This document shows, piece by piece, positions 1,720-64,000 of a stretch of DNA of 64,000 nt. The stretch is from Astrocystis sublimbata (lineage: Eukaryota > Ascomycota > Sordariomycetes > Xylariales > Xylariaceae): NCBI GenBank assembly GCA_022453515.1, contig JAJNNY010000019.1, forward strand, positions 620,001-684,000, in the 5' to 3' direction. A program made the position numbers and the translations under genes. Below the pieces are notes generated by a model. That model was not told the DNA's origin. It was given only the letters and a program-made list of their open reading frames with translations, and made no database searches. Numbering within the stretch: position 1 is the first letter of the stretch; each line of letters begins with the position of its first letter.

Positions 1720-3863
1720 TCATTGCGATGCGGCTACAGGCGGTGATTTCTCGTCGTTACGCTTCCCCTGTGCTTGATCTGAATGTGCCGCATCGGGGGT
1801 CTCGGCCTCCTTCGTGGTCGGATCCTCCTTCGCAGCTTCGTCAGTCTTGGCGTCCCCTTCCTGCTTTTTTCCGAAAATATTGACAGTTGGCATGGGCATG
1901 GACGGCATGGACGGCATCTGCGGCATTGACCTCGGCACGAACGAGCTGAAGCTTGGGCCCGACGGTATCTCGGGCATCTTTGTTGGCACGTAAGACCTGA
2001 CTCCAGTGCCAGCCTGCTGTGCAACTCCCATGAGGTAACGCATGTAGCTGCTCCTATTCGTGTCGCTGGTATCTGCGACATCGGGAGCTTCGTCATCGTC
2101 GTCAGGAAGCGGGACTGCTGCCGCCGCGGCCGTGATGTCAAGTGGGGACTCATCGGGCACCTCGATCCCATCGCCCTTATCGCCATCCGCTGTTGAATCA
2201 GAGGCGTCAACGATGCCCTCCGTCTTCGGAATCTCCTGGCCATCAGGCGTAGTTGTGACAGGTTCTTCAATCGGTTCAGGGTTCGCTGGCTCGCTGAATT
2301 TAGGGTCGTCTACGATGTCTGAGTCGTCCTGGAACCACTTGATTACAAGATCGCTCGCTTCGTATGTCATCTGCTCGTACTCGGCATTCTTGTCTCGAAT
2401 GAACATGCTCATATGCGCCTGGATTTCATCGTCGACGTTTGTGAGAATTCTGCGCGAGAAGAGAGAATGCGCGAGCTGCTCCTTGTCTGGGATGGCGCAA
2501 AAGGTGCGCTCGGGGACGAAGTAGCCCCCGCTCCAATAGCCATTCTCGCCGAGTGACGTGTAGTAGTCGTGGATTCCTACGCCCTGTAAGAGAGCCATGC
2601 GCTCCAGTCTCCGGGCTAGTTCCTGCTGCTTCATGAGTGCGCCGATGAAGGTGAAGTGGTCGGACAGGTACTCGAAGGAGCGGCCAACATTGCCACGGTT
2701 GATGTAAGCTAATCCTTGGCCTATGGTATCGACGCTCGATTGGTATCCTTCTACAGAAGAGTCAGTAACAGAATTATCTGATGGCTTTTGCCCTGGAAGA
2801 TTCCAGCATCGGATCTGTAGAAGAATACAAAGCGAGATACGCCAACGTACCCTTTATCGACTCCTTGTTGAGGTTGCGCATACTTCGCATTCCGTCCATG
2901 ATCTGCTGTCGATGCACATACGCTGCAACACCCCCGGCAGCGATTGCGCCCACGGTCCCAGTGCGCACGGCAACAAGCTGCCATCCCTGCCAAGCGGTGC
3001 TGGCAACTGTGCTGCGGGAAGCGCCGCGCGCGGCTGTAGAAGGGAGGCTCGCAGCCGTTTTTCGAAATGCCGTCTTTCCGAGGGCTGCAGGAGCGGCGGA
3101 TAATGCCGTCATGACATTGAAGACGCTGCTCACTTTCTGATAGTTCGAAAACGCGCCGTAGACGAACATGGGTCGCGCAAGCCCATTGAAAGGTGTATCG
3201 AAAGTTAGAATTCCTTGTATAAGGGGAAAGATGGGCGATGTTTCTGAGGGTTCTTGCGAGACGTCGGTTGTTGAGGCATTCTTCTTGTTCCCCTTCTCCG
3301 CGGCGAGCTTCTCGTTTAGGATCAGGAAAAGCGTGTCAGATGCTACGAAGCCACTGGTATTCTTTTCGTTAGATAACTGACCTCAGCCTCTCAAATTCGG
3401 TGAATGCCACTCACCCCATAGAATGCGCAACTAAGACCACCCCAACATCACGATCATTTGGCGGCCATGGCGTCTGGCATTGCGCCTTGCGCACGTCCAT
3501 TACTCTTTCCTTCAACCTATAATACCGTAACATGAGTACGGGAGCGAATTTCCATAGCTGATGCGCTCGTAAGGGAAGCGATTTCCGTGAGCAAACATAC
3601 CATGAAAGGAATGCGACAGAGCATTGTCCAAGCTCGCCTTTGGTCTCATACTTGGGGTAGACAACTGATTCTACATGATCGTCGGGTATCTGTTTCGCAA
3701 CCTGTATTCTGAGGTCTTCGGGGAAAGTGCGAAATGTATCATCGTTGCCCTGTATTTTTTCGGCGTTAGAGATGACGGGTCGTCGAATTCTGATCGGAAT
3801 GGATCAAGACAGTCACTTTACCTTGAAACCGTGCAAAAAGCACAGTAGGAGCGTTCGTGGCAT
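1720..3863 (-). CDS. Alpha/beta hydrolase (DUF676-like lipase/esterase), 5 exons, 608 aa
   Basis: Five exons: 3863-3822, 3749-3601, 3516-3415, 3353-2851 and 2750-1720, with GT-AG introns of 72, 84, 61 and 100 nt; the joined frame is exactly 609 codons. The N-terminus MPRTLLLCFLHGFKGNDDTF carries the HGFKG oxyanion-region motif, and exon 3/4 joins into AHSMGGF, placing the nucleophilic serine at residue 96 (GxSxG-type elbow). LTFDTPFNGLA follows, as in fungal DUF676-like serine hydrolases. Residues about 223-244 (LVAVRTGTVGAIAAGG region) could form a membrane segment, suggesting an anchored enzyme. The last 170 residues are Pro/Asp/Glu/Lys-rich with MPSMPSMPMP repeats and look disordered. Substrate is unknown. 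It sits between two LEA-like genes, but nothing in the sequence ties them functionally. The start was chosen because HGFKG needs the first exon. Confidence 0.85.
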
Positions 3864-4671
3864 CGTGCTTAGTTTCCGGGTCAACTGTGTTTGTGAAGAG
3901 CCCAATGTGGGTGGGTGGGTAGTATTGATCAGAATCTAGGTATAGGTATGCTATTAATATTCAGATGCGTGGCAATCTTGGTTCATGGACTTTTCACAAT
4001 CCCATTCTTCTTCAGTCGCGAATCATCCTTGTAGCTGTTGGGGGGTTGCACCTGGCCCTTCGCGATAGATATTAGGGTCGAGGATTGAGGCTTTATCTGC
4101 TAGGTTCGATACTGCATCATCAAGCGCCACCCTCCATTGTGACTGCTAAGTACGTCATCCGGCGTCATTAGGCTTTGTGCTATCAAGTTTCACAAGATCC
4201 CTGATTTGTGTCTAACCTCAACTTAGGCCTACCTAGGCTACCTAGATTTAACGTGGCTGCCAATTGTTTGAACATGTGATCGTGAGTGTTGTTGACAGCG
4301 TGACGCCCACTCGTAGACTGTTGCGGTCGACACCACCTCGAAAGACTTCCAACTTGTTGTTATTGCTGCGGTCAGTTTACACACTTCACATATATGGGAC
4401 ACTGCCAGGTAGTAATAAAATTGAAATATGGATTATTCATGATATCATGCAGAAGCTATTTTTCCAACCGCCAGTCGAGAAAATGGAAATACTATGTGAT
4501 ATGGAACAAGAGACCCGTTACATCGTTAAAACATTACAGCTTTCGTGTCCGACCCCAATAGACAGACCCGTACATATAAATCGTTAATACAGCATTACCT
4601 CCACCTAGTAGTAGTACAGTCATGATCGCTGATAAGAACTTTCGCCTCCTATCGTTTTGATGTGCAAGCGT
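3864..4671. other. Intergenic, 808 bp
   Basis: Region between the hydrolase start and the 3' end of the DUF3659 gene. It contains a CTACCTAGG-type tract near 4228-4246. The open frame at 4264-4587 shows no family features. Confidence 0.5.
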
Positions 4672-50672: not shown

Positions 50673-51628
50673 ATCTCCTATTTATTCGCGGAATGTTGTG
50701 TGATCAATGTTTCGCCGAGACTGCTTGCTGGCACCTTGGCCTCAATAGAAGATACTGGGTACCTATGAGCTTCAGGCTACGCAGGTAGCTGCTAGCTAGC
50801 TCATGTTTTTAGACTGTATAATGGCATTTGCGAAAAATAATAAATAAAGGGCTGCAGCCTATGCAGAGTCCTGGATATACCTAACTTGCGCAACCTTTTA
50901 ACTAGTATACGCCCCCAAAATGTTACAATGGAGTCGACCTTTGCAACAGGCACGATAGAATGTTTATGGCCCCACATGCAAGAATCAGGATACAAGCTTC
51001 ACAGTTGGGTACCTAGGTACGTACCTACCGAGGCGAGCGAGGGTATCCGCCTGGAGGTGGAGTCGACGTAGCATTGGATGGTCCAAGCTCCTCCCGTTTA
51101 GTGCTGGTCGCAGTTGCACTTGGGTATAGAGGTACCCACCTAGGGAACCAGCCTTGTCGCGCCTTCTGCTTACCTACCGGAAGCAGAGCAGGCAACTGCT
51201 ACCTACACTTTGAAGTTTTCGACATTTTAGTGAAAGAGCCCAAGCAGCCAGACCAAGCCGCAGTTTTCGCGGCCTCCTGCACCCTTAGGCTGCAAGCTCC
51301 AAGCTCCCACTTCCACTCATCTACATCATTTATTGCTTGACTGCCACCAGCTATCATCGACTTTCCTTCACCCTTCACCGCTGCCGATGCGCGGTGTCTG
51401 TCATCACCTAAGGGAGCGCGGTGCGACCAACCACAACAAAGACGCCATCACGACAGTTCGACTGCGCAACGCAACGCTCCGCAACGCAACGCAGCACATC
51501 ACCACACAGCGATAGACTGCACCAGTCCCAGCGCTCATGTGCATCTGAGTCCCCGACAACAATCTAGCTGGCCGTGCATCGACTGCAGACACTCATGAGG
51601 CATCGGGTTCCCACGTTCATATGACACC
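50673..51628. other. Intergenic and probable 5' leader of the nucleoporin gene, 956 bp
   Basis: Contains GTACCTAGGTACGTACCTAC at 51009-51028 and CGCAACGCAACGC repeats near 51465-51490, just before the ATG at 51629. No supported frame. Confidence 0.5.
51009..51028. repeat. ACCTAGGT-type tract
   Basis: GTACCTAGGTACGTACCTAC, one perfect palindromic core plus a half copy, about 600 bp upstream of the nucleoporin start codon. Confidence 0.65.
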
Positions 51629-54600
51629 ATGGCAGCTGCCGGCGTAGACGTAGGCTACCTGGCTACCCATCTGGGCATACCGGAGGACAACCTGTCCATC
51701 GCCGCATCCGAACCCACTGTCGATCTCGTGAACGCCATCCTCGCTGCCGTGGCCACCAAGGCCCATGATTTTGATTCCCTGTTCTCTCAGAAGCTCGAAC
51801 TCGAAGTTGAGCTTGAGACTTCCGTCCGTGGCGCCGAGGCACAACGCGATGCCAGCAACAAAACCGCCAAGAGAGCTCTCAAGGACGTCGAGGACGTTCG
51901 CCAGAAGCTTACTGAAGAAGGTACCGCCAGCTCCTGCTATTCCACCTCCATCCCCTTTTCTCTCCTCGCTGCTTACACAGAATCAGAAACGAAGCGCCAA
52001 GCTCTCGAGAATGAACTGCAATCCCTTAAGACATCCAGCTCGACCTCGTCATCCGACATTGAAAGCCTGCGCTCGCGAATCACTTCTCTCGAGACCTCGA
52101 ACCGCGAATCCCTAGCCATCATCGATACGAAAAACTCCACCAATGAGTCGCTCTCCCAGGAACTACAAGCTCAGCACCAGAAAAACCTGAAGCTCAACCA
52201 AGAAGTGACCAACCTCCAGCAAACCGTGCAAAATACCAACGCTGCAGCCAGCTCGGCCAAGATACGAGAGCAGGGCATTCAGCGCCAGCTGGAAGCGGCC
52301 AAGCGCGATGTCGAGTGGACAGACCAGGAGCTGAAGAAGAAGACCGCCGAGGCCCTCAGTTACCGGAAGGAGAAGGGTGCCCGCATTGCTGAGCTCCAAC
52401 GCCAGAATGACGACGCCGCATCTACAGTTGACTCGTTAAAGCGTGGCGAACAACATCTTCGCCAACGCCTGCAAGATGCTCAGAGAAAGGCGGATGATGC
52501 TCTGGCCAAGATTCAGCAGCTCGAGGAGGCTGCTGCGCGCCGTGAGGAGGATTTCCAGCAACAGGTCGACCGCCTCCAACGGCTTCACGAATTGACAGAG
52601 CAACAGAACACAACCCAGAAGAACCGACTGCATGCCATGGAGGAGCGCGAAGCCCAAGTTAAACGGGAATGCGAAGAGAAGGTGCAGCAGATCAGCAAGG
52701 AACTAGCCGCGATCACCATGGATAAGGAAGAACTGACGCAGTCAAATGAATCACTGCAAGCCGAAGTCGGCCGCCTCGAGGCCATGATCGCCAGTGGCTC
52801 GGGCGGATCACCCGCACAGCCTGGCTCGGCCCCTCAGACCCCTCGACCTTTGAACGGTTCGGTGTACCGCGCCGGCTCTCCATTTGCAACCCCGGCCTCT
52901 ATGCGTAAATCTGTTTCGGCCACCCAAGCGTTGGACGAGTACTACAAGGTGAAGGGGCAATTGAGTGTTGAGAAGAAGCGAAGCAACAGTCTGGCCAAGG
53001 ATCTTGAGGATGTTCTCGAGCAGCTGCAGGCCAAGGCACCCGAGCTTGAGGAGCTCTATGCGGAAAACGAGCGTCTTCAGTTGGAGATCAAGAACATGTC
53101 CCACCTGTCGGACGAGAGTTTCCGTGAGCGCGATGTAGCTAAAAAGGCAGCGCGAAAAGCAGAGGGTGCCGCCTCTCAAGCCCATGCCGAGATTGCCATC
53201 TTGCGGAATCAACTCCGAGATCTTGGTGCTCAAGTTCAAATGCTGCTCTTTAACTTGCACTGTCGGGAGAAGGGTCTCGACGAAATGACAATTGAGGAGA
53301 CATTACATTTCCAGAAGCTTGAACGAGGCCAGGTTGAGGGTAATGCGGATAATATCAACAGTATGATTCTTCAACGGCTCGTCGTATTCAAGGATTATCA
53401 AGATGTGCAAGAGATGAACCAGAAGCTTCTTGAGGTCACACACGAACTCGGCCAAAAAATGGAGAGCGATGAGGCTGTTGCTGCCAAGAACCAAGCTGTC
53501 GAGGATCATAATGAGCGTATCCGACTCCAGCAAGAGTTGGAAGTGTTCAAAGATACCCTAAGGGGATTCCAGGTTAAGACAGAAAGTATCACCAAGGAGC
53601 GGGACATGTTCCGTCGTATAGTCGAATCTCGGGCATCGGGCGATGAGCTAGCCTCCGCGCTGGGACGTACTTCACAAAATGGTGTCCTTGCAAGCATTGA
53701 ACCCAACCCGCCTCTCGATGGCGACGGTTCTGATTACGCCACTCTGCTTGAGGATATCCGGAAAGAATTTGACGATTACCGAAAAGAGCAATCATTTGAT
53801 CGAAGGAGCTTGAAGGAGCAGATTGAGAAATTGTCCGCCGAGCGAAACAAGCTACAAAGCGAAGTCTCCAGAATTAATAGCCAGCTCTCGCTAGCTTCTG
53901 AGCGGTTTGAGATGCTCAAGTCCAACTATGCTGCCCAAGAGAACGAAAACAAAGAGTTGCAGAGAAGAAACCAGACCATGTCTGAGTCTGCGGCCAAGCA
54001 GGACATCAGAACTCAGAATGTGGCCGAGGAACTTGTTGAGGCTAGGGCAGTGGTGGAGAGCATGCGCAGCGAGAACGCAAATCTCAAAGCTGAGAAGAAT
54101 CTTTGGCAGGATATTCAAGATCGACTTAGCCGCGACAATGAGAATCTCATACAAGAGAAGTCTCGACTCAATAGTCTGTTAGCCACACAGCAGACTCTTC
54201 AGAATGAGCGTGACCACGGCGACGCCGAGACAAAGCGTCGTCTTCAGGGCACAATTGATTCTCTGGAAGCCGAACTGACAACCACGAAGCGCAAACTTGC
54301 CGAGGAGGTCGAGGAATCAAAGAAGGCACAAGTGCGAAAAGAATTTGATGCCCAGCAGTTGCAAAAACGAATCGACGTCCTCACTGCCGACCTAGGACGA
54401 ATCCGCGAAGAATCCGTAGCAGTGAAAACCAGCAGGGACCACCTACAGAGCAGAGTTGACGAACTAACAATACAGCTGCGCAGCGCAGAGGAACGTTCTG
54501 AACGATTGCAGCCGAGACCAACTCCACGACCAGGCTCGATGGTACCTGGATTCGATGAAAATGCAGCTCAGCAGGACAGCGACGAGCGAATCCAGGAGCT

Positions 54601-57600
54601 AATCCACGAGGTCACGGATCTTAAGAGAGATTTAGAGATTACCAAGTCTCAGCTGGAGAATGCCCAAGAACAGGTTGAGCAGTACAAGGAGCTGAGCCAG
54701 GCTTCTGAAGAGGAGCTCGAAAGGTTGAACTCTGCCCAGGAACAATACACCCAACAAATGGAAAATGAGCTATCTGCCAAGGATACGGCTATCAAGGACC
54801 TAGAGTCACGACTAGAAGAGCTGTCGTCCGAGTTAAAGAAATCGAATGACGAGCTCTCTAGTCTCCATGATTCCCAAGCAGAGGTTCAACGTCGCTTCGA
54901 AGACGAGAAGCATATCCTCGAAGGAGAGATCAAACGACTGAAAGAGACAGAAGATCACTACCTATCCTCCTCTCAATTCCACCAACAGGATATTCGAGCC
55001 CAAGCTGAAATTGCGACCGCTGCCCAACAGTCCTATGAAAACGAGGTTATGAAGCATGGAGAGACTGCCAAAGCGTTGTCCAATGTGCGAACCGACTACA
55101 ACGAGCTTAAGACTTCGGTCGCGAAATTCAAAGCTGAAGCCGAGTCCGCCAAGGCTACTCTTATGCAGAGCGAAAGCTCTTGGGATGACCGCCGTCAAAG
55201 GTTCGAGCAAGAGATTTCCGAGATCCGCAATCGTTGGGAAGATGCGAACGCACAGAACAAGTTGTTGCATCAGCAGCTAGAGAATGTCAACTCCCAGATC
55301 ACGGCGCTGCAGCAGAATCGCCCGCAAAGCGATGAATCCCTGGAGATGATATCTGCGCAGCCGAGTGATGGAGATGCCGACAAATACCGCGAACTGAGCA
55401 ACTACCTTCGCCGCGAGAAAGAGATTCTCGAAGTTCAGCTTGACCTCAAGGCACAAGACGCCAAGAGACTACAACAGCAACTAGATCATACACAATCTCA
55501 ATTAGATGAAGCTAGACTGAAGCTCGAGCAAGAGCGCCACTCACAAAGCGACAATGATCGGAATACCATGGCCCACAAGGATCTCATGAGCAAGTTGGAA
55601 GAGCTCAACCTTTTCCGCGAAAGCAGTGCAGCTTTGCGGACCGAAGCTCGTCAGGCACAGGCTCAATTGACGGAGAAAATTGCTAAGATCACCGAGCTAG
55701 AGTCCACAATCCAACCTCTTGAAGCTCAGATTGAGGAGCTCCATAGCCAGCAACAATTCAAAGAGGCGGAAATGGTCCAACTTCAAGAGGACCGTGACCG
55801 CTGGCAAAAGCGTACGGAGGACATCCTTTCCAAGCACGGCCGAACAGACCCGGCGAAAGTGGAGGAATTGAAGCAGAAGGTGGCCACCCTCGAGACCGAA
55901 CGAGACTCATTGCGTCAAGCTGAAGCTCCACTCCGGGAAAAGGTTCAAGAATTGGAGGCGTCAATCGCGACAAGGGAAGCCGATTGGGCTACGAGTCGAG
56001 AAAGATTGATTAACAGTGCTAAGGAACGATCTCGACAACAGACACAACTCAAGAACACAATTGTCGCTGAGAAGGAGGAACTCCAGAAGAATTTTGAGGA
56101 GGTTACTGGTGAACTCGCCAGTACCAAGGAAGAGCTAGAAACCTTCAAGAAGGCCAAGTCCGAATTGAAGGAGCAAGTGCTAGAATTCCAGAAGCAGGTC
56201 AGCTCCCTACAGGCTACGGCAGAAAACAATGCTTCTTCTGCGGCGCCATCCGACCCATCTGAAACAGAGGCCGCCGTGTCTTTGCTACGTGCCCAGCTCG
56301 ATGAGGCACTTGGCCAGATCTCCACTATCGCCTCAGAAAGAGTTGATATCGAGCAAGAGCTTCGTACCACACGCGAACAACTCGACTCTGCCCTTGCAGG
56401 CAAAGAGAGTAGCGCTGCTGAAGCTCAAACCCAAACTAATGGTGATGCAACGATGGAGAATAGTGCAGATGCTAGTCAGACTGTACCAACTGAGACTATA
56501 GCAACATCCCAGCCGTTGTCGGACGACGAGCGCAAGAATCTCGAGGAGAAAATTGCTGTATCCGAAGCTCGAGCAGCTGAATGGGAAGCTAAGGCTAAAG
56601 ACCTCGAACAAAACCAAGATCTCATTGTCAAGCACCGAAGCGACAAAATGAAGGAAGCACTCAATAAACGCCTGGCAGAATTCAAAGCCTCCATGGAAAA
56701 TGAACGAGCTCAACAGCAGCAAGACAAGGAAAGGCTCGAAGCTGACTTCAAACTACGCATGGAGCAAGAGAGAAAAATATGGGAGACCGAGCAGGCGACT
56801 GGCCAGAGCGAGACCAAAGTTCCAAGCACACCCCAGCCAAAAGCAGAGGCTCCAGCAACAACTACCAGCACACCAGTCAAAGATCTCAGCAACCTCAACG
56901 ATCAAGAAATCCGCGAGTTCGTTTCCAAAAACTCGACTGTTCGCAGCATTCTGCAAAATAACATTAAGAAACAGATCCAGATCGAGACCAAGAAGTTCAA
57001 GGATGAACATGAAGCTTCCATGAAGGTAGAATGGGAACAGAAGCTTGCTCAAGCTAAGGAATCGGCCACTCAGCTCGCCACATCCAAAATGAACCTTAAG
57101 TTGAACATGACGGAAAATCGCGCTCGGGGGGCGAACGCCAAGATCGAAGTAGTCCAAACTGCAGCGAAGGATACGCCTCAACGTCCAGTTGGAGAGGTCT
57201 GGGAAATTGCCAAAGACGCAAAACCCCCACCAGCAGTCAAACAGCCGGCACCTGCGGCTACGCCAGCGACACCCGCTACACCAGCTACGCCGGCAGCTCC
57301 TGTCGTCTCCACTGCCAATCCAGGTATGAAAACACACCCAAATCCAAGTTCCCCTAGATCTCTTGCTAATCCGGGACAACAGCACTCAGTACAACGCCCT
57401 CCAAACCACCAATTTCGCAGGAAGCGAAGCCTACTCCATCCAGCATCCCACCTAAACCGGTGGCTACTAATGCTTCACAGCAAGCCAGTAACAGTAACCC
57501 CTTCGCTTCTAGTCAACAGAACCAAACGCTGCCAAAGGCAGTGGCAGCGAACCCATTCGCACAATCCAGTGGACCAACACTCCAATCAGTGCCCTCGGGA

Positions 57601-57873
57601 ATCCCACAGCCTGCGCAGACGGCCGGATCCCAGATCCCGAAGGCATCCAATCTCCCGCTTCCAGGCGGAGCACGGAAACCAAGCGGCATACAACCGCCAC
57701 GAGGGGGCGCACGAGGCGGAGGTGCACAACGCGGACGAGGTGCACACCAAGGGCGTGGCAGTCTCAACCCTGGAGCGGACAACTTCCAGCCTGGAGCGAA
57801 ACGGCCTAGAGGTGACTCGGAAGTTGGCAATGGCTCCAAGAGGGCTCGTGGTGGCGGCGGCCCTGGCGCATAG
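51629..57873 (+). CDS. mlp1: Nuclear-basket nucleoporin Mlp1/Tpr homologue (2041 aa, 3 exons)
   Basis: Exons 51629-51920, 51981-57323 and 57383-57873; total 2042 codons. The first intron is exactly 60 nt with no stop, so the frame stays open through it, but its donor (GGTACCG), pyrimidine tract and ACACAG acceptor mark it as an intron. The second intron (59 nt, TGCTAAT branch) shifts the frame and gives the true C-terminus. The protein is almost wholly coiled coil (heptads rich in Glu/Lys/Gln/Leu) from about residue 45 to 1750, with the Mlp1/Tpr-like segment around residues 1000-1200. A Pro/Ala region (ATPATPATPAAP), NPFA motifs and an RGG/RG-rich basic tail (GGARGGGAQRGRGAHQGRG, KRPRGDSE) follow; KRPRG may be part of a nuclear import signal. 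It forms the basket filaments and takes part in mRNA export and checkpoint functions (by family). The last part (57145-57873) lies inside the palindrome. Confidence 0.9.
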
Positions 57874-58639
57874 ATCGGAGGGAGCACCTGCTGTTTGTTC
57901 AATCCCTTGCTACGGATTGACTCATGACCTGTGCTGTGTCTCATCTCTTGTACATTATCTGCTTATCTGGCTATGTATTATTGAAGAAGAAAAAATCTTG
58001 ATGGCTTTGAGGTAGTAGTAGGGATGGAATGGAGCTGAAGAGGGTTGCTAAGACGGAGTGCATGTGGGCGAGAGCGTCTCATCAAGCGAACGGCATCCAG
58101 GGCGTTCAGGCCACAAAATGAGATATACATATTTGCTTTGTTTAATGAAATAATTTTATAGCTTTCAGTTGCATAATCCGGAAGCCAGTCTGATGGCACT
58201 CCAACTAACGTTTTGAAATTGCTAAAATAGCCATTGCCAAGTTTCGGACATGAGTGAGAACCAACGCAGCATTGATTTCTATCGTTCTACCTTTGTAGAT
58301 AGCCGCGAGTAGTATTATAGAGTACAGTCCATGTGAAAAGTAATTCCTATCGCAAGAGGTCCTCGATGGCCACAATTTTGTAAGATCGGCTCTGAAGCAT
58401 GATCGTAATCTTCGCGTAGCCTCTATTCACTCCTGTCGCCTATCTTCTGCACATCCGAGCCACTACTACTGCTGATTGTGATTTTCACTTCCTAACGTCA
58501 CTCTTGTAACACCTTAAACAATCTTTTTATCAGTCCCAGCCCCAATTCTCTTCCTTGCTCCCTGCGTATCGTCAAGGCCGACAAGCAAAGCCCTTACGGA
58601 ACTATCCAGCCCCCTACTCACAAACTCGACCCTCCCTTC
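57874..58639. other. Intergenic between convergent genes, 766 bp (left arm)
   Basis: Holds the 3' flanks of mlp1 and of the membrane/coiled-coil gene. A 73-codon frame (57978-58199) has no motif. Its exact mirror is at 62506-63271. Confidence 0.5.
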
Positions 58640-59623
58640 TCAAGTGAACATTCCCTTAGTCACTGTCCGCCGCTGTCTCTCACTTTGCCTTTGATTTTCC
58701 TTCATCTTCTCCTCCCTCTCCACCTCGGCACGAATCCTTCCCTCTCTTTCCCCGCTCGCCTTGCGTTCCAACCGCACATTCTCCTCCCGCATCTTCGCTA
58801 ACGCCCGATCGAGCTCCTGCCGCTCGTGCGTGGAACGCCGGACCCTGTCCGCCAGGACATCCGCGTCCCTCTCGGCGCGCAAGGCACGCTGTTTCTGCTG
58901 TAGACTGTGGAACATGTGCTGGACACTACTGGTTGCGAGGCGCTTGTTCTGCCACTGCAGACGCGCGAGGTCCTGCGCGTGCTTTTCGATGGCCGCGGCC
59001 GCGGTGCTGTCTTTGTCGCGGCGCAGCATCTCCACCTCTTCTCGGAGAGAGCTGATCTCGCGCCGCTGCGTCGTCGTTTGCCCCTCGGCGCGCCGCAGGA
59101 AGTGGGCTGAGCGCGAGACTTGGCGGTGTAACGAGTCGAGCTCGCTGCTCTGCTCGCTGATGATGGTTCGCGAGTGGGCGGCGATGTCGGCTTTTGTGGA
59201 CGCGGTCGAGAGGAGGGAGGTTATGCGGTCGCGGAGCGAGGTGCAGGATGGGCAGTCGGGTGTTTGCGTGGATTTGTTTTGGTGTTGGGGGGGTTGGGGA
59301 TATGAATAATCGAAGTGTGTTTGGATCCAGGTATTGAAGCGGTGAAGCCCGGATTGGACTGTTTGTATGAACCGTGCGCAGATGTAGTACAGGAAGCTGA
59401 GAGCGTCACATATGAAGCTGAGGATGATACTTGAGATGCGGTAGAGGAAATTGATGAGAGATTTGGAGAAGTCGATTAGAAGTCTGGCGATGGCGATGTT
59501 ACTGACATAGCTGAAGATCACGCGGCAACGTTGGACCACAGCAGGGGGCAAGACTGTCACTTGGAAATACCAGAATATCAGGAGGAGAGTGATTGAATCC
59601 AGAATCACGAGATTGAAAGCCAT
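58640..59623 (-). CDS. Membrane-anchored coiled-coil protein (327 aa), left-arm copy
   Basis: Single exon starting MAFNLVILDSITLLLIFWYF. Residues 5-25 form one membrane helix; a second hydrophobic region (about 41-85, SNIAIARLLIDF, FLYRISSIILSFICDALSFL) could span once or twice. A short Pro/Gln/Thr linker with DCPSC leads to a charged coiled coil from about residue 150 to the end (SSLREEVEMLRRDKDS, LDRALAKMREENVRLE). It recalls fungal membrane-tethered coiled-coil proteins, but I recognise no named family. It converges on mlp1. An upstream Met in another frame (59684) overlaps and is not preferred. Start chosen because the helix begins right after it. Confidence 0.7.
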   Translation of the reverse strand: MAFNLVILDSITLLLIFWYFQVTVLPPAVVQRCRVIFSYVSNIAIARLLIDFSKSLINFLYRISSIILSFICDALSFLYYICARFIQTVQSGLHRFNTWIQTHFDYSYPQPPQHQNKSTQTPDCPSCTSLRDRITSLLSTASTKADIAAHSRTIISEQSSELDSLHRQVSRSAHFLRRAEGQTTTQRREISSLREEVEMLRRDKDSTAAAAIEKHAQDLARLQWQNKRLATSSVQHMFHSLQQKQRALRAERDADVLADRVRRSTHERQELDRALAKMREENVRLERKASGEREGRIRAEVEREEKMKENQRQSERQRRTVTKGMFT

Positions 59624-61521
59624 CTTGTACCAGGGCTATACGCCTATTATCCACGAGACTTGAGTAGGTAGACTTACTTTCCAAGATGTCCCTGGAGGTA
59701 TTAGTCGTCTTATCTATTAAGTTGATGCAGGTCTTTCAATTCACTTAGTCTATCTCTGTGATTCTATCAAAAGGCAATGTGCACCCCAAACAGTCCCCTG
59801 ACATAAAATTCTTGAGACAAAGTCTATCGAACCTCCAGCCTGCTCCACAAAGACTTTTCTTCAGATAGCCACAAGTTTCTCGTCACTGGTTTCATGATTA
59901 AAGGCGCGATGTCTCTTTTAAGGTACCTTGAGGGGGGGTTATGCAGTTACCTATATTTCTGAACTATAATATTCTTTCTGCGTCAAGCACTGGAGGCTGT
60001 CGTCAGCCTGATGTATGTTCAAAACTGGATTGACTATATCTCAGTCTATGTTGATTGGCTTTGTCATATGGAGCATTACCCTCCATTGGGAGTTTTTCTG
60101 TAGATATGATTGATAAATTTGTTTTATAAGGTTAGTAGATAGTACTAAAGACCTCTAAGGGTTAATATGTGCTATCTGTATCAAAGACTATTGCCCCCTT
60201 TGAAACAAAATCAAAAGCATCTATAGTCCATACTGCCCTATAGCAAAGCGAACGTGTATTTATTTCGGCTTCTGAGACCATTGTAAAAGCAGTGCGTCGA
60301 ATGTGTATTATAGGCAGATCAGTCGTGTCAATTTTATCCAAAATGGTGGGCAAGTATCGCCCGCGAACGGCCTATACAATCGAGTACTAGTTCTTATATT
60401 TCGATAATAAATCCCAAAATGCAACCGTTAACACATTTACAAAAATATTATGCTTAACAAGGGAGTACGGAGTTTGAAAGGGGCAACTGTCCAAATATCG
60501 ATTTTTTGTTCTAAGTATACCCTTTTATTCTATTAGCTAATTAAACTAAACTTAAAAAAAACAAATATAATATATTATATTTGTTTTTTTTAAGTTTAGT
60601 TTAATTAGCTAATAGAATAAAAGGGTATACTTAGAACAAAAAATCGATATTTGGACAGTTGCCCCTTTCAAACTCCGTACTCCCTTGTTAAGCATAATAT
60701 TTTTGTAAATGTGTTAACGGTTGCATTTTGGGATTTATTATCGAAATATAAGAACTAGTACTCGATTGTATAGGCCGTTCGCGGGCGATACTTGCCCACC
60801 ATTTTGGATAAAATTGACACGACTGATCTGCCTATAATACACATTCGACGCACTGCTTTTACAATGGTCTCAGAAGCCGAAATAAATACACGTTCGCTTT
60901 GCTATAGGGCAGTATGGACTATAGATGCTTTTGATTTTGTTTCAAAGGGGGCAATAGTCTTTGATACAGATAGCACATATTAACCCTTAGAGGTCTTTAG
61001 TACTATCTACTAACCTTATAAAACAAATTTATCAATCATATCTACAGAAAAACTCCCAATGGAGGGTAATGCTCCATATGACAAAGCCAATCAACATAGA
61101 CTGAGATATAGTCAATCCAGTTTTGAACATACATCAGGCTGACGACAGCCTCCAGTGCTTGACGCAGAAAGAATATTATAGTTCAGAAATATAGGTAACT
61201 GCATAACCCCCCCTCAAGGTACCTTAAAAGAGACATCGCGCCTTTAATCATGAAACCAGTGACGAGAAACTTGTGGCTATCTGAAGAAAAGTCTTTGTGG
61301 AGCAGGCTGGAGGTTCGATAGACTTTGTCTCAAGAATTTTATGTCAGGGGACTGTTTGGGGTGCACATTGCCTTTTGATAGAATCACAGAGATAGACTAA
61401 GTGAATTGAAAGACCTGCATCAACTTAATAGATAAGACGACTAATACCTCCAGGGACATCTTGGAAAGTAAGTCTACCTACTCAAGTCTCGTGGATAATA
61501 GGCGTATAGCCCTGGTACAAG
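59624..61521. other. AT-rich core between the two gene copies, including the palindrome axis
   Basis: Two mirror halves of 949 bp meeting at 60572/60573. Composition shifts sharply to A/T from about 60100 inward, with long A and T runs at the axis. Each half carries one 63-codon frame (60162-60353 minus; 60792-60983 plus) without motifs. Since both membrane-protein copies point outward, this would act as their shared promoter region if the structure is real. The AT-rich part may be a decayed mobile element, possibly RIP-affected, but no ends or coding domain are visible. Confidence 0.6.
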
Positions 61522-62505
61522 ATGGCTTTCAATCTCGTGATTCTGGATTCAATCACTCTCCTCCTGATATTCTGGTATTTCCAAGTGACAGTCTTGCCCC
61601 CTGCTGTGGTCCAACGTTGCCGCGTGATCTTCAGCTATGTCAGTAACATCGCCATCGCCAGACTTCTAATCGACTTCTCCAAATCTCTCATCAATTTCCT
61701 CTACCGCATCTCAAGTATCATCCTCAGCTTCATATGTGACGCTCTCAGCTTCCTGTACTACATCTGCGCACGGTTCATACAAACAGTCCAATCCGGGCTT
61801 CACCGCTTCAATACCTGGATCCAAACACACTTCGATTATTCATATCCCCAACCCCCCCAACACCAAAACAAATCCACGCAAACACCCGACTGCCCATCCT
61901 GCACCTCGCTCCGCGACCGCATAACCTCCCTCCTCTCGACCGCGTCCACAAAAGCCGACATCGCCGCCCACTCGCGAACCATCATCAGCGAGCAGAGCAG
62001 CGAGCTCGACTCGTTACACCGCCAAGTCTCGCGCTCAGCCCACTTCCTGCGGCGCGCCGAGGGGCAAACGACGACGCAGCGGCGCGAGATCAGCTCTCTC
62101 CGAGAAGAGGTGGAGATGCTGCGCCGCGACAAAGACAGCACCGCGGCCGCGGCCATCGAAAAGCACGCGCAGGACCTCGCGCGTCTGCAGTGGCAGAACA
62201 AGCGCCTCGCAACCAGTAGTGTCCAGCACATGTTCCACAGTCTACAGCAGAAACAGCGTGCCTTGCGCGCCGAGAGGGACGCGGATGTCCTGGCGGACAG
62301 GGTCCGGCGTTCCACGCACGAGCGGCAGGAGCTCGATCGGGCGTTAGCGAAGATGCGGGAGGAGAATGTGCGGTTGGAACGCAAGGCGAGCGGGGAAAGA
62401 GAGGGAAGGATTCGTGCCGAGGTGGAGAGGGAGGAGAAGATGAAGGAAAATCAAAGGCAAAGTGAGAGACAGCGGCGGACAGTGACTAAGGGAATGTTCA
62501 CTTGA
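61522..62505 (+). CDS. Membrane-anchored coiled-coil protein (327 aa), right-arm copy
   Basis: Exact mirror of 58640-59623: same 327 residues, same start context, opposite strand. The two copies are head-to-head, 1898 bp apart. If the palindrome is an assembly artefact this copy does not exist in the genome; if real it is a perfect recent duplicate with an untouched open frame. Confidence 0.55.
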   Translation: MAFNLVILDSITLLLIFWYFQVTVLPPAVVQRCRVIFSYVSNIAIARLLIDFSKSLINFLYRISSIILSFICDALSFLYYICARFIQTVQSGLHRFNTWIQTHFDYSYPQPPQHQNKSTQTPDCPSCTSLRDRITSLLSTASTKADIAAHSRTIISEQSSELDSLHRQVSRSAHFLRRAEGQTTTQRREISSLREEVEMLRRDKDSTAAAAIEKHAQDLARLQWQNKRLATSSVQHMFHSLQQKQRALRAERDADVLADRVRRSTHERQELDRALAKMREENVRLERKASGEREGRIRAEVEREEKMKENQRQSERQRRTVTKGMFT

Positions 62506-63271
62506 GAAGGGAGGGTCGAGTTTGTGAGTAGGGGGCTGGATAGTTCCGTAAGGGCTTTGCTTGTCGGCCTTGACGATACGCAGGGAGCAAGGAAGAGAAT
62601 TGGGGCTGGGACTGATAAAAAGATTGTTTAAGGTGTTACAAGAGTGACGTTAGGAAGTGAAAATCACAATCAGCAGTAGTAGTGGCTCGGATGTGCAGAA
62701 GATAGGCGACAGGAGTGAATAGAGGCTACGCGAAGATTACGATCATGCTTCAGAGCCGATCTTACAAAATTGTGGCCATCGAGGACCTCTTGCGATAGGA
62801 ATTACTTTTCACATGGACTGTACTCTATAATACTACTCGCGGCTATCTACAAAGGTAGAACGATAGAAATCAATGCTGCGTTGGTTCTCACTCATGTCCG
62901 AAACTTGGCAATGGCTATTTTAGCAATTTCAAAACGTTAGTTGGAGTGCCATCAGACTGGCTTCCGGATTATGCAACTGAAAGCTATAAAATTATTTCAT
63001 TAAACAAAGCAAATATGTATATCTCATTTTGTGGCCTGAACGCCCTGGATGCCGTTCGCTTGATGAGACGCTCTCGCCCACATGCACTCCGTCTTAGCAA
63101 CCCTCTTCAGCTCCATTCCATCCCTACTACTACCTCAAAGCCATCAAGATTTTTTCTTCTTCAATAATACATAGCCAGATAAGCAGATAATGTACAAGAG
63201 ATGAGACACAGCACAGGTCATGAGTCAATCCGTAGCAAGGGATTGAACAAACAGCAGGTGCTCCCTCCGAT
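62506..63271. other. Intergenic, mirror of 57874-58639 (right arm)
   Basis: Reverse complement of the left-arm segment. Nothing beyond what is described there. Confidence 0.5.
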
Positions 63272-64000
63272 CTATGCGCCAGGGCCGCCGCCACCACGAG
63301 CCCTCTTGGAGCCATTGCCAACTTCCGAGTCACCTCTAGGCCGTTTCGCTCCAGGCTGGAAGTTGTCCGCTCCAGGGTTGAGACTGCCACGCCCTTGGTG
63401 TGCACCTCGTCCGCGTTGTGCACCTCCGCCTCGTGCGCCCCCTCGTGGCGGTTGTATGCCGCTTGGTTTCCGTGCTCCGCCTGGAAGCGGGAGATTGGAT
63501 GCCTTCGGGATCTGGGATCCGGCCGTCTGCGCAGGCTGTGGGATTCCCGAGGGCACTGATTGGAGTGTTGGTCCACTGGATTGTGCGAATGGGTTCGCTG
63601 CCACTGCCTTTGGCAGCGTTTGGTTCTGTTGACTAGAAGCGAAGGGGTTACTGTTACTGGCTTGCTGTGAAGCATTAGTAGCCACCGGTTTAGGTGGGAT
63701 GCTGGATGGAGTAGGCTTCGCTTCCTGCGAAATTGGTGGTTTGGAGGGCGTTGTACTGAGTGCTGTTGTCCCGGATTAGCAAGAGATCTAGGGGAACTTG
63801 GATTTGGGTGTGTTTTCATACCTGGATTGGCAGTGGAGACGACAGGAGCTGCCGGCGTAGCTGGTGTAGCGGGTGTCGCTGGCGTAGCCGCAGGTGCCGG
63901 CTGTTTGACTGCTGGTGGGGGTTTTGCGTCTTTGGCAATTTCCCAGACCTCTCCAACTGGACGTTGAGGCGTATCCTTCGCTGCAGTTTGGACTACTTCG
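63272..64000 (-). CDS. 3' end of a second mlp1 copy, cut by the window edge
   Basis: Mirror of 57145-57873: last exon 63762-63272, 59-nt intron 63821-63763, and the end of the big exon from 64000 to 63822. About 223 C-terminal residues are visible, including the ATPATPATPAAP, NPFA and RGG/RG tail. Whether a complete second gene or only a truncated fragment follows depends on how far the palindrome extends past 64000. A truncated copy would lack the promoter and most of the coiled coil. Confidence 0.6.

Follow-up and report, generated by a model that had tools for sequence, protein, structure and literature searches.

The present analysis deals with a 64-kb window of the Astrocystis sublimbata genome (C99:620001–684000), which lies near the end of a contig of 689790 bp (C99, with 5790 bp of contig beyond the window), and with the long palindrome that occupies its last part. 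We think that this palindrome is very probably a fold-back (snap-back) artefact of sequencing or assembly that was kept at the contig end. An initial annotation of the window had left this option open beside a real genome rearrangement. The artefact is favoured because fold-backs recur at the ends of other contigs, because their turning points differ at one and the same locus and fall on native inverted repeats, and because the C99 arms show no differences of the repeat-induced point mutation (RIP) type and only insertion–deletion errors towards the edge. This interpretation is based on the comparison of assembly sequences and on the literature. The genome searched comprises 42.59 Mb in 189 contigs, and the counts obtained from searches are lower bounds. 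The parts of the palindrome, in window positions, are the following:

51355..60572, + strand: left, presumably genuine arm of 9218 bp, mirrored by the remainder of the contig
60573..64000, − strand: in-window part of the right, presumed fold-back arm, which runs 5790 bp further to C99:689790
60572..60573, no strand: axis without spacer, centre AATATATT, 12% GC in the surrounding 100 bp
60476..60572, + strand: AT tract headed by AGGGGCAACnnTCnAAATATCGATTTTTTGTT, with about 77% identity to the fold-back tract of C1/C56
60573..60669, − strand: mirror copy of the AT tract, the reflection of 60476..60572

The initial annotation had described a perfect palindrome without spacer from 60572/60573 to the window edge, and this description holds: all 3428 of 3428 pairs x/121145−x match. 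It had also raised the matter of how far the symmetry extends past 64000 and whether a contig end follows. The symmetry continues to the very last base of C99 (689790), giving 9218 bp per arm with the mirror position at 51355. The contig therefore ends in an inverted copy of the same locus, joined to it with zero spacer and of a length within the range of long reads, which are features expected of a fold-back artefact. The innermost 8367 bp of the right arm are a perfect mirror of the left arm, while the outermost 850 bp or so carry 11 single-base indels (8 extra and 3 missing bases) and no substitutions. Indels free of substitutions at the edge would reflect thin long-read coverage and not evolutionary divergence, and their pattern suggests that older PacBio reads were used.

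C99 is not the only contig that ends in this way. Terminal fold-backs were found in three other large contigs, at the end of C1, the start of C2 and the end of C13. The last 1000 bp of C1 correspond to C1:1523760–1524765 reversed, around an axis at about 1540578, with an arm of about 16.8 kb that reaches the contig end. A direct comparison of the C1 arms, covering 5079 bp to either side of the axis, showed differences within the loop alone; this loop measures 99 nt by strict inward matching and 79 nt when taken as the segment between arms at 99%. The fold-back at the start of C2 has arms of 3.5 kb. At the end of C13, the last 1000 bp correspond to C13:798438–799444 reversed, with an arm of about 19.4 kb, and the axis is a (TTA)n/(TAA)n tract with a 1-nt centre and 99.9% symmetry in the 1 kb that was read.

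The frequency of these structures was estimated by an inverted-repeat search (E 1e-20) of the first 10 kb of 16 contig starts (C1–C15 and C99), which gave one kilobase-sized fold-back (C2), one of 83 bp (C13) and none at the other 14, and by terminal-kilobase queries with the C1 start, the C99 start, the C13 end and the C2 end. No nearby inverted copy of the terminal kilobase was found at the C1 start, the C99 start or the C2 end. Kilobase-sized fold-backs are thus present at four of the eight ends of C1, C2, C13 and C99, or at two of six once the C1 and C99 ends are left out because they had been selected by the question itself. Some additional observations on these ends can be mentioned. The small structure at the C13 start, searched within 10 kb, is an 83-bp palindrome that begins at the first base (C13:1–83) and is perhaps the stub of another fold-back. 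Both C99:1–1000 and the C2 end lie in dispersed repeats, the former with eight more full-length places at 86–90% identity and the latter with about a dozen near-full-length ones at 80–84%. TTAGGG arrays are present at some contig ends among the matches listed.

Two of the fold-back loci are each represented by a second, small contig that turns elsewhere, C56 in the case of C1 and C48 in the case of C2. C56 carries the same locus as C1 and ends at the same base, and its turn comes about 195 bp earlier than that of C1 after the tract head, with almost no loop. In 16.5 kb of alignment with the right arm of C1, C56 shows 42 insertions, 20 deletions and one substitution, again a spectrum of the long-read error type. 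C48 carries the C2 locus at about 99% identity, and its asymmetric centre (read within 3001–4200) measures 223 nt, versus 29 nt in C2. The recurrence of fold-backs at unrelated loci, combined with turns that shift at a single locus (C1/C56 and C2/C48), is the behaviour expected of an artefact. Multiple junctions at the C1 and C2 loci argue for snap-back, since a clonal rearrangement should give one junction per locus. A site-specific end resembling a hairpin telomere was rejected, as the turning points differ at one locus. C56 (22505 bp) and C48 (25126 bp), being other folded versions of the loci of C1 and C2, are candidates for removal from the assembly.

In two of the six turns, an unfolded copy of the locus allows for seeing what was there before. 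C48 holds the C2 locus unfolded as ATAATATG, 30 nt and CATATTAT; the loop of C2, 29 nt long between the same two words, corresponds to those 30 nt in reverse complement, with one base missing. Such a loop is what a strand end that paired with its own 8-nt complement and was then copied back would leave. A paralogue of the C2 axis in C129 (82–85% identity) has ATAATATG and CATATTAT 31 nt apart, and no inverted repeat was found in the 601 bp read there. The second case is C56, which turns inside TATTTTTAAAAAATA, a short native inverted repeat present in C1. The evidence for C99 is indirect: the related tract of C1 contains the palindrome ATTATATATATAAT at the position that corresponds to the C99 axis, which hints at a turn on a short native inverted repeat as well. 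Based on C2/C48, on the C56 turn within C1 and, indirectly, on C99, turning points can apparently be short native inverted repeats that vary between molecules. Taken as a whole, the set shows through these unfolded copies that such repeats can carry fold-backs, which for the most part lie in AT-rich sequence.

The turns are AT-rich in five cases out of six (C99, C1, C56, C2 and C13). In a 100-bp segment that contains the axis, the GC content is 12% for C99, 8% for C1, 4% for C56 and 20% for C2; for C13 it is 10–16% per 50 bp. By comparison, none of 5126 overlapping 100-bp windows in positions 1–51354 of the window and none of 14865 in 15 contig starts had 12% GC or less. The AT-rich composition of the turns bears on another kind of artefact, that of plain missed-adapter (unsplit) reads, in which the turn occurs at an ordinary fragment end because the adapter was not recognised. 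The zero spacer at C99, the 1-nt centre at C13 and the location at a contig end would suit such reads. Their turns, however, are expected to have random composition, whereas most of the axes lie in AT-rich DNA and two loci turn on one rare tract; moreover, genomic sequence and not adapter makes up the 29 nt of the C2 loop. We rejected missed adapters at random ends as the main cause and give them hardly any credence. The source proposed for a false palindrome by the initial annotation can be retained in what concerns folding back, but not in what concerns the missed adapter.

The approximately 100 bp leading to the C99 axis are about 77% identical to one other locus, that of C1/C56, where they likewise form fold-back axes. 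In a genome search, the pattern of the tract head with up to three mismatches gave matches in C1, C56 and C99 alone. The possibility that the AT tract belongs to a many-copy transposon was discarded on account of this limited distribution; a search with a 362-bp tract added weaker matches at the ends of C71 and C21, and no inverted repeat was seen in the 1.1–1.2 kb read at these two contig ends. The true continuation of C99 was also looked for, and no contig sharing the 1475 bp before the tract was found; a single junction is known for this locus.

A quite different explanation is that the strain carries a fixed, stable inverted duplication in its genome, either a segmental inverted repeat or an isochromosome of dicentric origin. 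The exact symmetry would agree with it, as would a right arm whose consensus is clean along 8.4 kb and the single junction known for C99 itself. In addition, C132 in this genome does contain an inverted repeat with almost no spacer that bears RIP scars. Its arms differ by 154 substitutions over the 3745 bp compared, 153 of which are transitions, with CpA as the commonest context. Transition-biased changes in CpA context are the signature of RIP. C132 shows, as far as sequence can tell, what an old inverted duplication would look like in this genome. Between the C99 arms, there are no RIP-type differences and no substitutions at all. The absence of RIP weakens the case for a real event, although a young duplication, more recent than the last cross, would also be unscarred. 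Furthermore, at two of the other fold-back loci the turn of the sister contig lies at another base, and the several fold-back contig ends would need several such chromosomes. We thus consider a stable duplication very improbable. Nevertheless, since more than one junction was observed at the C1 and C2 loci and not at C99 itself, our confidence in the artefact was lowered by a hundredth, to the benefit of this alternative.

The C132 repeat has some interest of its own. It spans C132:274001–281490, with an axis at about 277747 and arms of at least 3.7 kb that are about 96% identical, each containing two (TTAGGG)5 tracts directed at the axis. It may represent a genuine, old event in a subtelomeric region, either a fold-back or a fusion of ends. 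Parts of it are found on other contigs, in one case next to a telomere array, and an inverted pair of repeats of about 450 bp in C172 (118242–118693 and 119601–120052), placed about 0.9 kb apart, also matches the C132 left arm.

The remaining alternative is that the fold-backs are real but heterogeneous: fragile AT tracts would break in some nuclei of the culture, and hairpin caps would be replicated into palindromic chromosome ends, which were then sampled by sequencing. It could accommodate the turns at short native inverted repeats and the AT-rich axes, the fact that two of the loci have two junctions each, and the occurrence of one rare tract at a pair of loci. There is also a precedent, as a review describes hairpin-capped ends that give rise to palindromic duplications, with AT-rich palindromes as break sites (PMC7999016). 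Still, an end that snaps back in the tube predicts identical anatomy, the arms stop where the contig stops, and several such loci in one culture would probably mean several dicentric or broken chromosomes. Overall, we regard in vivo formation as unlikely. An extension of this idea, to which we attach a similarly low probability, would be that the AGGGGCAAC-headed AT tracts of C99 and C1 and the other AT tracts of C2 and C13 are natural fragile sites, where ends broken in the mycelium fold on short inverted repeats into hairpin caps and yield recurrent palindromic chromosome ends, the survivors of which become scarred by RIP, perhaps as in C132.

Several observations weigh against the snap-back artefact and should be considered together. 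All 12 contig starts of C3–C12, C14 and C15 are devoid of fold-backs in their first 10 kb, and some contig ends with 24–28% GC, namely those of C2 and C21, have none either. The C48 turn is of mixed composition (18–68% GC per 50 bp around the asymmetric centre). The turn in the same rare tract at both loci that possess it points to more specificity than one would expect of an artefact of AT-rich DNA in general. When the left half of the axis alone was compared with shuffled sequences, it did not fold better at C99 (z 1.69), C1 (z −0.43 and 2.09) or C56 (z 0.45), so a strong hairpin in the left half is unsupported as the cause at these three; at the C2 axis, folding leans stronger than in the shuffles (z −1.89). 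The control on base composition covered gene-rich DNA and contig starts, not AT-rich islands. Finally, PMC12870357 reports virtually no fold-backs for PacBio HiFi, in a study with three PacBio samples in total, and a small number of recurrent positions for recent Oxford Nanopore (ONT) genomic DNA.

Even so, we think that snap-back gives the best account of the whole set. A single strand end within a very AT-rich tract would snap back where a short native inverted repeat allows it to pair, presumably during DNA or library preparation, and would then be copied from, or joined to, its own complement, which would yield a molecule that goes out on one strand and returns on the other. Ordinary reads across the AT tracts being probably few or none, the assembler would take the fold-back molecules as the final step of the contig, repeat the left arm in the opposite direction over some portion of a long read, and then stop.

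The genes affected by the C99 fold-back are the following:

51629..58015, + strand: mlp1/TPR reading frame, an open reading frame (ORF) of 2128 aa entirely within the left arm
58640..59623, − strand: 327-aa ORF, left-arm copy (ORF list)
61522..62505, + strand: 327-aa ORF, probably false second copy (ORF list)
63130..64000, − strand: 3′ end of the probably false second copy of mlp1, the remainder of which lies past the window

The statement in the initial annotation that a whole gene is copied was correct, but the copied portion of mlp1 is not limited to its 3′ end: the entire frame, from 51629, is duplicated. Its best protein matches are from Xylaria, at 81–82% identity (best 120 of 470). Towards its end, the mlp1 ORF probably includes an intron, near 57325; within 57325–57873, the frame that ends at 57873, rich in RGR/RARGGGG, looks like the true C-terminus. 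The 327-aa ORF (58640–59623) appears by eye to be hydrophobic in its N-terminal part and coiled-coil-like in the rest, and a protein search with it (E ≤ 0.001) returned itself alone.

The last 9218 bp of C99 are best regarded as a false duplicate that brings in a spurious second mlp1 and a second 327-aa gene. Left uncorrected, it would mislead work on gene copy number, synteny or structural variants. The same caution applies to the fold-back ends of C1, C2 and C13 and to the small contigs C56 and C48. A simple check of assemblies is suggested, in which contig ends are aligned with themselves and the axes are inspected.

Palindromic reads are reported to disturb long-read assembly (PMC13265396), and several described systems can be compared with the present one. 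The closest are the fold-back reads studied with Breakinator (PMC12870357), which amount to about 0.55–0.6% of ONT genomic reads, may reappear at given positions and are attributed by the authors to the preparation of libraries, with gap 21-mers rich in simple repeats, poly-A and AC being the commonest. As in C99, one place is read on both strands with no or short intervening sequence, and recurrence is possible. The difference is that here the fold-backs are found in an assembly, as the final step of contigs and mostly in extreme AT tracts, while the available portion of that paper notes no AT-tract hot spot. In the work on Pacasus (PMC6218980), numerous inverted duplications were present in an assembly and none were detected after palindrome correction of the reads. 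Those chimeras, derived from whole-genome amplification, are also artificial inverted duplications that enter an assembly; nevertheless, with contigs of up to at least 1.56 Mb and only some of the tested ends folded, whole-genome amplification seems unlikely in our case. Palindromic AT-rich repeats (PATRRs) and hairpin-capped breaks (PMC7999016) share with the structures described here the AT-rich inverted-repeat tracts as turns and a palindromic product, but they are events that take place in the cells of yeast and humans, whereas ours are known from assembly sequence. Lastly, human fold-back inverted duplications also have short inverted homology at the turn; the 21 of 21 sequenced junctions reported in PMC3907307 have spacers of 766–70466 bp, in contrast to the centres of 0–223 nt found here.

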